NCBI GenBank assembly: GCA_014730235.1
Contig: WJIO01000034.1
Location: 1-22,536, forward strand
Origin: Candidatus Poribacteria bacterium
GTDB taxonomy: Bacteria > Poribacteria > DTPJ01 > WJIO01
Direction of reading: 5' to 3'
Length of the DNA: 22,536 nt
Shown here: positions 5,195 to 13,554 of the stretch, piece after piece
Numbering within the stretch: position 1 is the first letter of the stretch
Layout of the letters: each line of letters opens with the position of its first letter
The notes under the pieces: model-generated
The model's database searches: none
The model's input: only the letters and a program-made list of their open reading frames with translations
Told to the model about the DNA's origin: nothing
Translations under genes and position numbers: made by a program

Positions 5195-6523
5195 CTATGC
5201 AGCCTTTTTGTACGTAGCCCAGAAATCATCCCATTCACCATTGCATACGAGAATGCGAATACTCAGCACAGCGTCTGCTCCTTTGCGACTCCAGCACATG
5301 CCACGAAGCTTCATCCGACGGCAGATGAGAATATCCCCGGCTTTGTCCGCTGAGCCTGCTCCTATGGAGATTCCTTTGTCTATGGCTTCCTTATACCATA
5401 TCCCATGACGGTTGCGCTCTATATAACCAGCAAGCTTCACCAACTGCTTTTTCTTGTATCTCTTGCGGATTCTCCTTCTCAGGCTCTCTATGTATGCCAA
5501 AGCTCCATCCACATCCCCTGAGTTCAGGTAATCCATGAGCTGCTCTTTGACTTCTATGAAACGCTTATGGTTGTAATACACCGCCCATAGGCGTTCCTTG
5601 ACTTTCTTACACAGGTGGTAGTAGTCAAGAATGTATCTGCATGAAAAGGCGTATTTGCTGTGAAAACCACGGATGAATGGTGCTCCATCACCCCGAACCA
5701 GGCCTTCTGTCTCATCAAGCTTGCCACCACTGCGTTTATACAACTCCAACACTATGTCCCAGTAGAATCGCTCCGGATCACAGAAGGTTCCCATGTAACG
5801 CTTATCTACCAATGAATATGTGTCTTCCTTAACCAACTCACGCTTTGACCACACCACACCAACTTTCCCTTCCATACGTTTCTCATTGTCGCGGCTGTTG
5901 ATCATCACACCATCCAGGTCCATGTAGATGCGGTTCATTAATTCCTTCCACACTTCCAGATTATCAAAATAATCTCCCTGAAGCTTCTTGTCATCTTCCA
6001 GTTCCCTGACTCTGTTGCCATCAAAGGAATCTGACACTGCTTTGCCAATCTCTGTGGTCTTGTTAAAAACCGTCTGGTGACTCACACAACGGCGACGTAG
6101 GATCTTCTGCATCAGGTATTCACTCTCCTTGTAATCCCAGGATGCTCCACACAATGCTGATAACTCTTGGACACTGGAACTCAACTGCTGCCTGGGGGAT
6201 ATGCCCAACACCTTATCCAATGGATAATCATATCTCCTGCATTGGGGGCAGTAACTACGCCATCGCTGGTAGCTGACGTCACTCACCCAGGTACCTATCT
6301 GACGATTCTTGCGTTTATGCTCCAGCTTTGTCCCACATTCCGGGCATGTCTCATTACGAACCTGGTCGTTCCAGTCTTCTACCTTCTTCTCCATCAGATA
6401 TGCTCCCAGCTTATACATGGCTGCAAGAACCCGGTCCTCCAAATCATCAATGCCGGTTGGCTTCATCTCTGAAAACTCGTCATTTATCTCTTGAAATATA
6501 TTATCCAGTGTCTTATGATCCAT
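5195..6523 (-). CDS. DDE-type transposase, ISLre2/UPF0236-like
   Basis: 442 residues filling almost the whole IS. A zinc-ribbon-like knuckle is formed by Cys60, Cys63, Cys92 and Cys95. Candidate catalytic acids are Asp202 or Asp204 in MDLDGV and Asp279 in RGDGAPF, followed by the family-typical DYYHLCKK. Near the C-terminus SADKAGDILICRRMK aligns with the ISLre2/ISKra4 block that carries the last catalytic residue, followed by GMCWSRKGA. At that point the family usually has Glu and this protein has Asp393. The expected role is cut-and-paste or copy-paste DNA transposition at the 25-bp ends. The reading frame is intact. ISLre2 and ISKra4 share this architecture and I cannot separate them with certainty. 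Confidence 0.88.
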   Translation of the reverse strand: MDHKTLDNIFQEINDEFSEMKPTGIDDLEDRVLAAMYKLGAYLMEKKVEDWNDQVRNETCPECGTKLEHKRKNRQIGTWVSDVSYQRWRSYCPQCRRYDYPLDKVLGISPRQQLSSSVQELSALCGASWDYKESEYLMQKILRRRCVSHQTVFNKTTEIGKAVSDSFDGNRVRELEDDKKLQGDYFDNLEVWKELMNRIYMDLDGVMINSRDNEKRMEGKVGVVWSKRELVKEDTYSLVDKRYMGTFCDPERFYWDIVLELYKRSGGKLDETEGLVRGDGAPFIRGFHSKYAFSCRYILDYYHLCKKVKERLWAVYYNHKRFIEVKEQLMDYLNSGDVDGALAYIESLRRRIRKRYKKKQLVKLAGYIERNRHGIWYKEAIDKGISIGAGSADKAGDILICRRMKLRGMCWSRKGADAVLSIRILVCNGEWDDFWATYKKAA

Positions 6524-6868: not shown

Positions 6869-8013
6869 TTATTTCCAATCGTGTTTCTGTGTTTTTGTTA
6901 TAAATTTATATAAACCTGCCAATGCCGCATAGTTTAATATTACCAGCGCATAGGGTATACCCAGAAGGCGACCGATTAATGATGGCTTCATCCTTGACAT
7001 GTAGTGACCAATTAGGGCTGATGTATAAACCGATACCTGAAGGACTAACATTGCTCTATAGAAAAGTATATGTGATAAAAATACACTCGTAATAAATGCA
7101 GATATTAAGGCGAAGGGAACAAAAAAGCCTGAATACTTTATGAGAGATAAATTGAAAGAACACCTTGTTTTTGAAGGGATTAAAGAGGTTGTGCATTCTG
7201 TAAGAGGCTTGATAATTGCCGCATAATGTCCTGATTTTTCGTCCCAGCTCCTTTTTTGCCGTATCTGATACATTGTCATAAGCCCGGGCATTTTCCTCAA
7301 ATACCACACGATAACCACTTAAGACTATATTTATTGGAATAACAACGTCATCAAGGATGGTGTCATCCGGTATTTGCTGAAATAATTCTTTCCTTATGGC
7401 ATAAATTGCCCCTGTAGCACCTGAAGTTGAATATATTAGACTTTCTTTTTTTTCTCAGGAGCTTTTCATATTTCCAATATGCTCCTACGCCTTCCCCCAC
7501 ACCGCCCTTGTCTTTATTTATCAAGTATAATTCGCCGCTTACAGCACCGACCTTTTTGTCATTAAAGTTATTAACAAGCTCAATAATCGCATTCCTGTCA
7601 TATAACTGTCTTGAATCCGAAAGCACGATTATTTTACCATTGGCTTTTGTTATCGCATAATTAAGTGCTGCTGATTTCCCTCCCCTTTCAGGCATTCTAA
7701 GCAATTTAACACCAAAAGGATTAAAATTTTTGACGATTTCATCTGTTTTATCCGAAGAATGATCTGAAACAACCACTATTTCAAATTTGTCCTTCGGATA
7801 ATTCATACTTAGAGCATTTTCGAGTTTATTTCTTATATTATTTTCTTCGTTATATGCAGCTATTAGCATAGTAACACTTGGTGTGAAGGCGTCTTTATCC
7901 ACAGCTTTGCCTTTAATTTTTGCTATAATAATTAGCAAAATTGGATATCCAAAGTAAGTATAAAATACAAAGAAGGCAGAAAACCAGAAGATAACTTTTA
8001 AGACAGTAAACAT
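6869..8013 (-). pseudogene. Family 2 glycosyltransferase with two frameshifts
   Basis: Three consecutive frames rebuild one membrane GT2 of about 380 residues. The first frame (8013 to about 7450) has an N-terminal transmembrane helix, the fold start SVTMLIAAYNEENNI, SDHSSDKTDEI, and the DxD-like VLSDSR. After an A8 run (T8 at 7446-7453 on the plus strand) the next frame continues STSGATGAIYAIRKELF, the TILDDVV acceptor-site acid and RTLCGNYQ, which stands where the QxxRW motif would be. After a T6 run (A6 at 7121-7126 on the plus strand) the last frame supplies the C-terminal transmembrane helices and ends KTQKHDWK. Dropping one base from each run restores the frame. The enzyme would transfer a sugar from a nucleotide donor to a growing exopolysaccharide at the inner membrane. 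The start has AGGA about 7 nt upstream. Both slips are in homopolymers, so sequencing error has to be excluded. Confidence 0.85.
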
Positions 8014-11526: not shown

Positions 11527-11696
11527 GCTGTCATTCCTGCGAAACTCTTATTCCTTTTTGCTCAAGCTTTTTCAAAAAGCTTGAAGCAGGAGTCCAGTAG
11601 ATCCGCATAAAGACTGGATTCCCGCTTTCGCAGGAATGACAGCATAAAAAATTTCTTATCTTTACCCCACTCAAGCCGGAAGAGCCTAAAATTTCA
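11527..11696. repeat. Copy B: MITE-like palindromic element plus homologous tail
   Basis: A 117-bp unit (11527-11643) bounded by 18-bp perfect inverted ends, GCTGTCATTCCTGCGAAA and its reverse complement at 11626-11643. Inside is a perfect 11-bp-arm hairpin around one base (11562-11584, TCAAGCTTTTT arm) and the inner ATTCCCGC/GCAGGAAT hairpin with a GAAA loop on the minus strand. The right half plus about 50 bp to 11696 matches copy A at the window start. It lies between the LamG remnant and the end of the Clp-N/beta-helix gene, about 20 bp past that gene's stop. No coding capacity, so any mobility would depend on an external transposase. Confidence 0.8.
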
Positions 11697-11716: not shown

Positions 11717-13453
11717 TTAATACACCACGTTAAAACCTATCTGCACACTTCCACTGCTCTCATTTGTGATATCAATCTCACCCATCATCTGATTACCCCT
11801 GATTATGGCCGAGTTCACATCGGATCCCAGGTGGATTTTCTTTGCATCGTGCTGGAAATTGCAGTTCTGGACACTCACATTTCCTCCTGTTGCCTCTACA
11901 GCCGCAGCCTTTTTCTTGGCATGATCCCAGTAAACAAAGTTACATTGCAGGAAACTTACAAAACCATCACCGGCTATTCGGGCTATCTGGTTTGCTGGGC
12001 CCCAAAAGGCACAGTTATTGAAACTGATTGTACCGGTGTTTTCCGGGCCAACTATTATTTCCACCGGATCTTTTGCTCTCATGCTTACAAATTCACCGTT
12101 GGTAATCAGTATACCATAAGGGGCTGATTGTTCAACAAATACGGCGTTCTCAGTTCCATCAGCACCTATACCCAGGAAATTTCCGTTGCAAACACCCTGT
12201 TCTGTTGCGATGAAGTGATAACCGATCTTATAGCCAAAGCAGAAAGTGTTTATAACATATTCCCAGTCAGTTCTGCCAAAAACAAAACCTCGGCCTTCTT
12301 TCAGCAGGTAATCTATCAACTTGCCTCCCTGAGGTCGGGGTTCTCCGTCCCCTTCATCCCTGGCCCAGTAATGGGGATTAAAATGGACGTTTTCAATGCG
12401 ACCAATATCAGTGCAGTTATTTATATATACACCTATCTTTAATGGGCATCCAAAGACGTTTCGGATATAGTGAAGCTCGTTGTGGTAACTTCCAATATCA
12501 ATGGCTTTGTATGGGTTGACAATTGTAACATCAATTATGCTGTTGTGCATGCCCCGACCCTGTATCGTCCAGGGATAGGGTTTTATATCTTCCAGAGTCT
12601 GTTCCGGATAATAAATAGTAAGGCCTTGAACTGTACCATTTGGGCTTATAGATATTAAAGGTGGATCGTTTTCTTTATCCCTTCCTGCATAAGCCAGTAG
12701 CACCGTTCCAGTATTTAAACGGGCATGATGGGGTGATGTCCATGTTCCTCGTAGTGTTACTCCTGGTGGTATTGTGAGGTTTCCATCAAGACGATAGCGT
12801 CCCGGCGGCAAAAACACCTCTCCACCAGCTTCACCGGCTTTATCCAGGTCTCGCTGTATATTTTCAGTGGCATCCTGGGTGCCGTCCCTGAGCTTGTCAA
12901 ATCTTGGTATCTGTCTATTGGCAGGTATTGATCCGATAGGCATAAGGACTTGTCTTATTTTTTCTTCTGTGACCTCAAATTCATTTAGAAGTCTTGCAGC
13001 TTCGGTTTTTTTTGACCTCAATAAACCCAACAGTATATGTTCAGTGCCTACATAATCCTGTTTAACCTTATAAGCTTCTTCCATAGAGTTTTCTATAATT
13101 TTCTGGGCGGATTTGGTAAATTCTATTTCTCCTTCTTCTTTATTATTTTCAGTGCTGTCGCCGCTGCCGCTTTGCTTTTTTACCAGTTCTTTTACTTCTG
13201 TTTCCAGGGTTTCAAGATTAATATCTATCTCCTGAAGTGCTCGAACCGCTATACCCTGACCTTCATGAAGAAGTCCTAAAAGCAGGTGTTCCGTATCCAC
13301 TCTGGAAAGCTTCTGACGTTTCGCTTCTTCACTTGCATAATTAATAACCATCCTGGCTCGTTCTGTGAATTTTGCCAGATCTATTGCCATTACAGAATCT
13401 ACACTTAAAAGGGTTAGTATTATTGTTAATATGATAATTGACACTATAAGCAT
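11717..13453 (-). CDS. Exported fusion of ClpC-type Clp-N double domain and pectate-lyase-like beta-helix
   Basis: 578 residues. Residues 1-23 are a hydrophobic segment ending SVMA, a plausible signal peptide, though there is no basic residue before it, so a membrane anchor is possible. Residues 25-172 are a complete Clp repeat (Clp-N) pair: FTERARMVINYASEEA, DTEHLLLGLLHEG, then FTKSAQKIIENSMEEA and GTEHILLGLLRS. The glutamates equivalent to those by which Bacillus ClpC binds phospho-arginine (E32, E106) are E55 and E138. No AAA+ module follows. Instead DGTQDATENIQRDLDKAG (190-207) and VFLPPGRYRL open a Pectate_lyase_3-type right-handed beta-helix that runs to the C-terminus. The ATG has AAAGGAA about 9 nt upstream; a second ATG at codon 22 would give a cytosolic form but has no Shine-Dalgarno. 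It has its own promoter (13526-13554). Function unknown; binding of a modified polymer or protein at the cell surface is inference. Confidence 0.85.
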   Translation of the reverse strand: MLIVSIIILTIILTLLSVDSVMAIDLAKFTERARMVINYASEEAKRQKLSRVDTEHLLLGLLHEGQGIAVRALQEIDINLETLETEVKELVKKQSGSGDSTENNKEEGEIEFTKSAQKIIENSMEEAYKVKQDYVGTEHILLGLLRSKKTEAARLLNEFEVTEEKIRQVLMPIGSIPANRQIPRFDKLRDGTQDATENIQRDLDKAGEAGGEVFLPPGRYRLDGNLTIPPGVTLRGTWTSPHHARLNTGTVLLAYAGRDKENDPPLISISPNGTVQGLTIYYPEQTLEDIKPYPWTIQGRGMHNSIIDVTIVNPYKAIDIGSYHNELHYIRNVFGCPLKIGVYINNCTDIGRIENVHFNPHYWARDEGDGEPRPQGGKLIDYLLKEGRGFVFGRTDWEYVINTFCFGYKIGYHFIATEQGVCNGNFLGIGADGTENAVFVEQSAPYGILITNGEFVSMRAKDPVEIIVGPENTGTISFNNCAFWGPANQIARIAGDGFVSFLQCNFVYWDHAKKKAAAVEATGGNVSVQNCNFQHDAKKIHLGSDVNSAIIRGNQMMGEIDITNESSGSVQIGFNVVY

Positions 13454-13470
13454 TTTATTTTTTCCTTTCG

Positions 13471-13528
13471 TAAAATAAAAAATCCCAGAAAGAACATCTA
13501 CCTCTTGAGATTAGTTCTTTCTGGGATT
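13471..13528 (-). terminator. Intrinsic terminator of the efflux operon
   Basis: Perfect 15-bp arms (13514-13528 and 13481-13495, AATCCCAGAAAGAAC) around an 18-nt loop, followed on the minus strand by a T-rich run (TTTTATTTTA). It lies 29 bp after the RND pump stop codon. The stem overlaps the promoter of the next gene. Confidence 0.88.
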
Positions 13529-13554
13529 ATAACTTACTCAGCCTATATTATCAA
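13526..13554 (-). promoter_or_regulatory. Promoter of the Clp-N/beta-helix gene, nested in the terminator
   Basis: On the minus strand TTGATA (13554-13549), 17 bp, then a perfect TATAAT (13531-13526). The predicted start site, near 13519, lies inside the first arm of the terminator stem, so transcripts from here would lack most of that arm. A second TTGATA six bases further upstream has non-optimal spacing. Confidence 0.6.

Follow-up and report, generated by a model that had tools for sequence, protein, structure and literature searches.

A ClpC-type N-domain fused to a predicted exported beta-helix protein in a single poribacterial genome

The window, a 22,536-nucleotide stretch of DNA from Candidatus Poribacteria bacterium, carries on its reverse strand (13453-11717) a gene whose product joins a double Clp-N domain to a right-handed beta-helix (Table 1). 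The reading frame runs uninterrupted for 578 sense codons, as stated in the initial annotation, followed by a stop codon and with no internal stops. The promoter of its own that had also been claimed is recognisable as a strong sigma70-like match, albeit by consensus only. At its start region this promoter overlaps a hairpin that is probably, by a consensus match only, the terminator of the upstream RND gene or operon; a transcript start at around 13519 would lie inside the 5' arm of the hairpin, such that the gene's own transcripts would be predicted to escape the terminator.

Table 1. Features of the fusion gene, in window coordinates.
Feature	Position	Strand	Remarks
Sigma70-like promoter TTGATA-17-TATAAT, 11/12	13526..13554	(-)	consensus only
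Perfect 15-bp inverted repeat and T-run, probable terminator	13481..13528	(-)	-24.4 kcal/mol, z -4.6
Shine-Dalgarno-like AAAGGA	13463..13468	(-)	9 nt before ATG1; direct reading
Export signal, residues 1-23 (MLIVSIIILTIILTLLSVDSVMA)	13385..13453	(-)	relatives too start with export signals
Double Clp-N domain, residues 27-172, eight helices, ClpC type	12938..13375	(-)	
Clp_N repeat 1 (DTEH, E55 = ClpC E32)	13181..13336	(-)	
Clp_N repeat 2 (GTEH, E138 = ClpC E106; with S147, T150)	12944..13075	(-)	
Linker, residues 173-182	12908..12937	(-)	pLDDT under 50 at 170-181
Right-handed beta-helix, residues 183-578, conserved secreted polysaccharide-active-like family	11720..12907	(-)	

Just past the gene, at 11527-11643, lies a perfect 18-bp inverted repeat (GCTGTCATTCCTGCGAAA, 81 nt apart) that is possibly a small non-autonomous mobile element. 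Elsewhere in the window, a glycosyltransferase family 2 gene (6869-8013, reverse strand) shows an apparent frameshift break between approximately 7318 and 7400, and a UPF0236 protein is encoded at 5195-6523 (reverse strand); UPF0236 proteins are often transposase-like elements. The neighbourhood of the fusion gene gives no hint of a ligand or partner.

The hydrophobic N-terminus noted previously is evident from a maximum 11-residue Kyte-Doolittle value of 3.4, as against 1.1 for the ClpC N-terminus, and the hydrophobic stretch ends in a V-M-A motif after which cleavage is probable; the protein has both the hydrophobic core and the cleavage motif of a Sec-exported protein. Together with the family to which the beta-helix belongs, this signal strongly suggests that the fusion protein is exported. 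The alternative, that translation starts at Met22 and yields a cytosolic protein in which the hydrophobic stretch is no signal, is considered very unlikely. An ATG is indeed present at codon 22, Clp-N is elsewhere a cytosolic domain and the n-region contains no K or R (the first K is residue 28), although a positively charged n-region is usual for Sec signals rather than obligatory. However, the Shine-Dalgarno sequence serves ATG1 and none precedes Met22, a strong hydrophobic peak leads into V-M-A, and the beta-helix relatives are exported almost throughout, including two with Tat-type signals (L071 and L072).

Pfam Clp_N (PF02861) matches the N-terminal part in two stretches (79.2 bits, E 2.6e-22), both repeats pass the gathering score, and the sequence matches the B. 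subtilis ClpC N-terminal domain with E values of 1e-27 to 1e-28. Phmmer alignment to ClpC N-domain chains places E55 of the DTEH motif (residues 53-56) and E138 of the GTEH motif (residues 136-139) opposite ClpC E32 and E106, so the two repeats, both motifs and both glutamates are as described in the initial annotation, which had also called for a structural model. The two domains were modelled apart because a joint MAFFT alignment of both misplaced the Clp-N rows. Modelled alone with AlphaFold, residues 24-178 (pLDDT 88) adopt the eight-helix ClpC N-domain fold, with TM scores of 0.72-0.83 to ClpC and ClpC1 N-domains, and the structural matches include the phospho-arginine complex 5hbn as well as cyclomarin and ecumicin complexes. 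AAA+ modules and an M-domain are absent, Pfam detecting Clp_N and PF12708 alone in a frame that ends in the beta-helix, so the protein does not have the module set of a ClpC unfoldase. Where the same genome's ClpC matches columns conserved among other ClpCs, 25 of the 28 residues are kept in the fusion, in comparison to identity with that ClpC at 16 of 50 variable columns (Fisher p 1e-6), which argues that the fold has been maintained by a constraint that may date from before or after the fusion. Repeat 2 departs from ClpC at two positions: S147 and T150 stand where all the ClpCs compared have Glu and Gly.

The two glutamates had been offered as evidence that the domain reads phospho-arginine or adaptors, a reading that is weak because these residues persist in nearly every Clp-N domain, including that of ClpB; across all aligned Clp-N rows, each repeat has an invariant or almost invariant EH. 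The equivalents of pocket residues are retained at site 1 (T30, R32 and E55 for ClpC T7, R9 and E32) and site 2 (E138 and R154 for E106 and R122), and T7/R9 and R122 of ClpC have been placed in or near phospho-arginine sites (PMC12583610). In the same genome a 501-aa McsB-type arginine kinase, also in favour of such a ligand, is encoded directly before clpC (L075:3433-4938); its N-terminal part is cysteine-rich and it is a possible McsA-McsB fusion. On the other hand, S147 and T150 alter repeat 2, and phospho-arginine is an acid-labile product of the cytosol. To our knowledge there is no source of it outside the cytosol, its presence outside the cell is implausible and an extracellular phospho-arginine reader is unlikely; little credence is given to the idea that the exported domain goes on recognising phospho-arginine, or some other phosphorylated or anionic molecule, beyond the cytoplasm.

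The second half of the protein matches PF12708 (Pect-lyase_RHGA_epim) in its N-terminal rungs only, at 29.9 bits and just above the 27-bit cut-off, but the pectate lyase-type start motif and beta-helix reported earlier are confirmed by structure and by a large full-length family. AlphaFold2 with 35 aligned sequences gave a pLDDT of mostly 94-99 over residues 190-578. The nearest solved structure is AlgE6 (Z 35.3, 327 residues, 2.2 A), followed by the Sf6 tailspike and AlgE4 (both Z 34.3) and then phi29 gp12, inulin fructotransferase and PfbA; the majority act on polysaccharides, whereas PfbA is an adhesin. Family members at 39-68% identity occur in Sumerlaeota, Armatimonadota, Planctomycetota, Omnitrophota, Verrucomicrobiota and others, and the family is present in 96 of the 291 Armatimonadota genomes searched. 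The invariant polar residues H328, D349, R352, E354, H357, D396 and D432 are all present and, with the fold, moderately support an enzyme. Of the two natures first suggested, carbohydrate-active or adhesive, the fold and invariant residues favour the former. Almost all the relatives checked have a signal peptide or Tat signal immediately ahead of the helix. One relative (L099) carries Golvesin_C at its C-terminus and five others (L092, L093, L097, L098 and L100) have similar C-termini, while L091 has an N-terminal extension with no Pfam match; accessory domains come and go in this modular secreted family. The sources searched yielded no characterised enzyme of this family.

The fusion is known from one genome. 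No Clp-N was found among more than 150 beta-helix relatives, and Clp-N joined to a beta-helix was detected neither in 84 genomes of the same phylum nor in 8 genomes of other phyla, and neither 35 genome contigs nor a scan of viral contigs contained it. Likewise, there was none in 40 genomes of the Sumerlaeota, none among the matches listed for 291 Armatimonadota genomes (up to four candidates scored per genome) and none in 392 Planctomycetota genomes (up to three). L091, which aligns to query residues 120-564, was rejected as an instance of the same architecture since its N-terminus is a different stretch. No other exported Clp_N was seen in the phylum, the matches listed being of AAA length, contig-end pieces or Clp_N-HTH proteins, and none was found in the literature searched; the view that the combination is unrecorded therefore stands for the literature and genomes searched. 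Double Clp_N fused to HTH_17 was observed in the same genome (L074:16647-17387, contig C338) and in the same taxonomic order (L078:1243-1941); this is the layout of a cytosolic regulator and recalls mycobacterial ClpC2.

The two halves differ in their nearest kin, which indicates different histories and a chimera. The beta-helix does not group with beta-helices of its own phylum but is sister to a Sumerlaeota protein without Clp-N (L039; 68% identity, support 100/99), and the Clp-N half is sister to the ClpC of the same genome (51% identity, support 88/88). GC3 values (Clp-N 0.30, clpC 0.32, beta-helix 0.41) agree in direction with separate histories. Judged from these sequence relationships, the most likely origin of the fusion is within this lineage. 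A 44-codon clpC 5' fragment, 80% identical to the genome's own ClpC, lies elsewhere in the genome (C445:27342-27473; L077:1810-1974, forward strand), where it keeps its ribosome-binding site directly upstream of an exported CBM9_1-DUF5916 gene; this second fragment shows that clpC 5' sequence has undergone at least two copying events.

The fusion combines two domains of known kinds into a chimera seen in a single genome, and looks like a one-off domain capture. In the preferred reading, given somewhat better than an even chance, it is an exported beta-helix enzyme with a captured ClpC N-domain as its binding module. A copy of the cell's own ClpC N-terminal domain would have been captured between the signal peptide and the beta-helix domain of an exported protein, most likely a polysaccharide enzyme (epimerase-, lyase- or hydrolase-like). 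Free of AAA+ modules, it may act as a tether that holds the enzyme on an envelope surface layer, a protein partner or an exposed peptide segment, a role parallel to that of the other accessory domains in the family. This reading starts from established domain identities and folds, chimeric ancestry and a conserved Clp-N core, and is weakest where the domain is to bind and tether; what holds of the binding module originally proposed on an exported protein is that a ClpC-type N-domain precedes an exported beta-helix in one protein, with binding itself presumptive. More tentatively, and less probably than not on present evidence, the AAA-free domain could select an envelope partner or substrate outside the cytoplasm by means of the peptide groove or anionic pockets that it inherited.

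Alternatively, the Clp-N domain is a passive, folded spacer left by a partial duplication of clpC that happened to insert in frame after the signal, an explanation that is judged unlikely yet deserves weight. Occurrence in a single genome fits it, as do the copied clpC fragment on C445 and the two ClpC-invariant residues missing from repeat 2, but the core residues are strongly kept despite only about 50% identity to the genome's own ClpC and the domain is predicted to be well folded. The draft nature of the assembly (451 contigs, contamination estimate 4.8%), combined with the lack of a second assembly with the junction in the genomes searched, raises the further prospect of an assembly chimera between a clpC gene and a beta-helix gene. 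This is most improbable: a signal with its own ribosome-binding site precedes Clp-N in place of the ClpC start, an arrangement that would take two in-frame misjoins, both junctions fall at domain borders and the genome's ClpC, at only 51% identity, provides no source copy.

Work on Clp-N domains has treated them as antibiotic targets and as the cytosolic points of entry into protein-degradation machines. If the preferred reading of a captured binding module is true, an exported, unfoldase-free Clp-N would mean that this domain can by itself serve as a portable recognition module beyond the cell, and would provide a natural test of Clp-N binding without AAA+ rings. Furthermore, the analysis brings to light a large, as yet uncharacterised secreted beta-helix family with swappable accessory domains.

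The closest counterpart of the N-terminal half is the ClpC N-domain (B. subtilis 5hbn/2y1r and M. tuberculosis ClpC1), which has the same double Clp-N fold; identity to the B. subtilis ClpC structures is 42-44%, with the equivalents of E32/E106, T7, R9 and R122 kept. Unlike ClpC, the fusion has no AAA+ modules, is predicted to be exported, bears a beta-helix and lacks the invariant Glu and Gly of repeat 2. Mycobacterial ClpC2 is likewise a ClpC-derived Clp-N without an unfoldase, reused as a stand-alone binding domain, although it binds cyclomarin inside the cell and represses its own promoter, with no signal peptide or enzyme domain described (PMC10030653). Clp-N has similarly moved to a non-ClpABC protein in the FtsH ternary conflict systems, in which ClpN repeats accompany vWA, albeit with other partner domains in a conflict-system setting and no exported enzyme described there (PMC7159879). 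The C-terminal half shares its beta-helix fold and N-terminal start motif with the mannuronan C5-epimerases AlgE4 and AlgE6 and the Sf6 tailspike (Z 34-35), a likeness at the level of fold; identity is 16-17% and they have no Clp-N. Much closer are the exported proteins of Sumerlaeota (L039), Armatimonadota (L041) and Planctomycetota (L048), which are 39-68% identical over the whole beta-helix and share its invariant residues; relatives of this type are without Clp-N, and some bear a C-terminal Golvesin_C instead.
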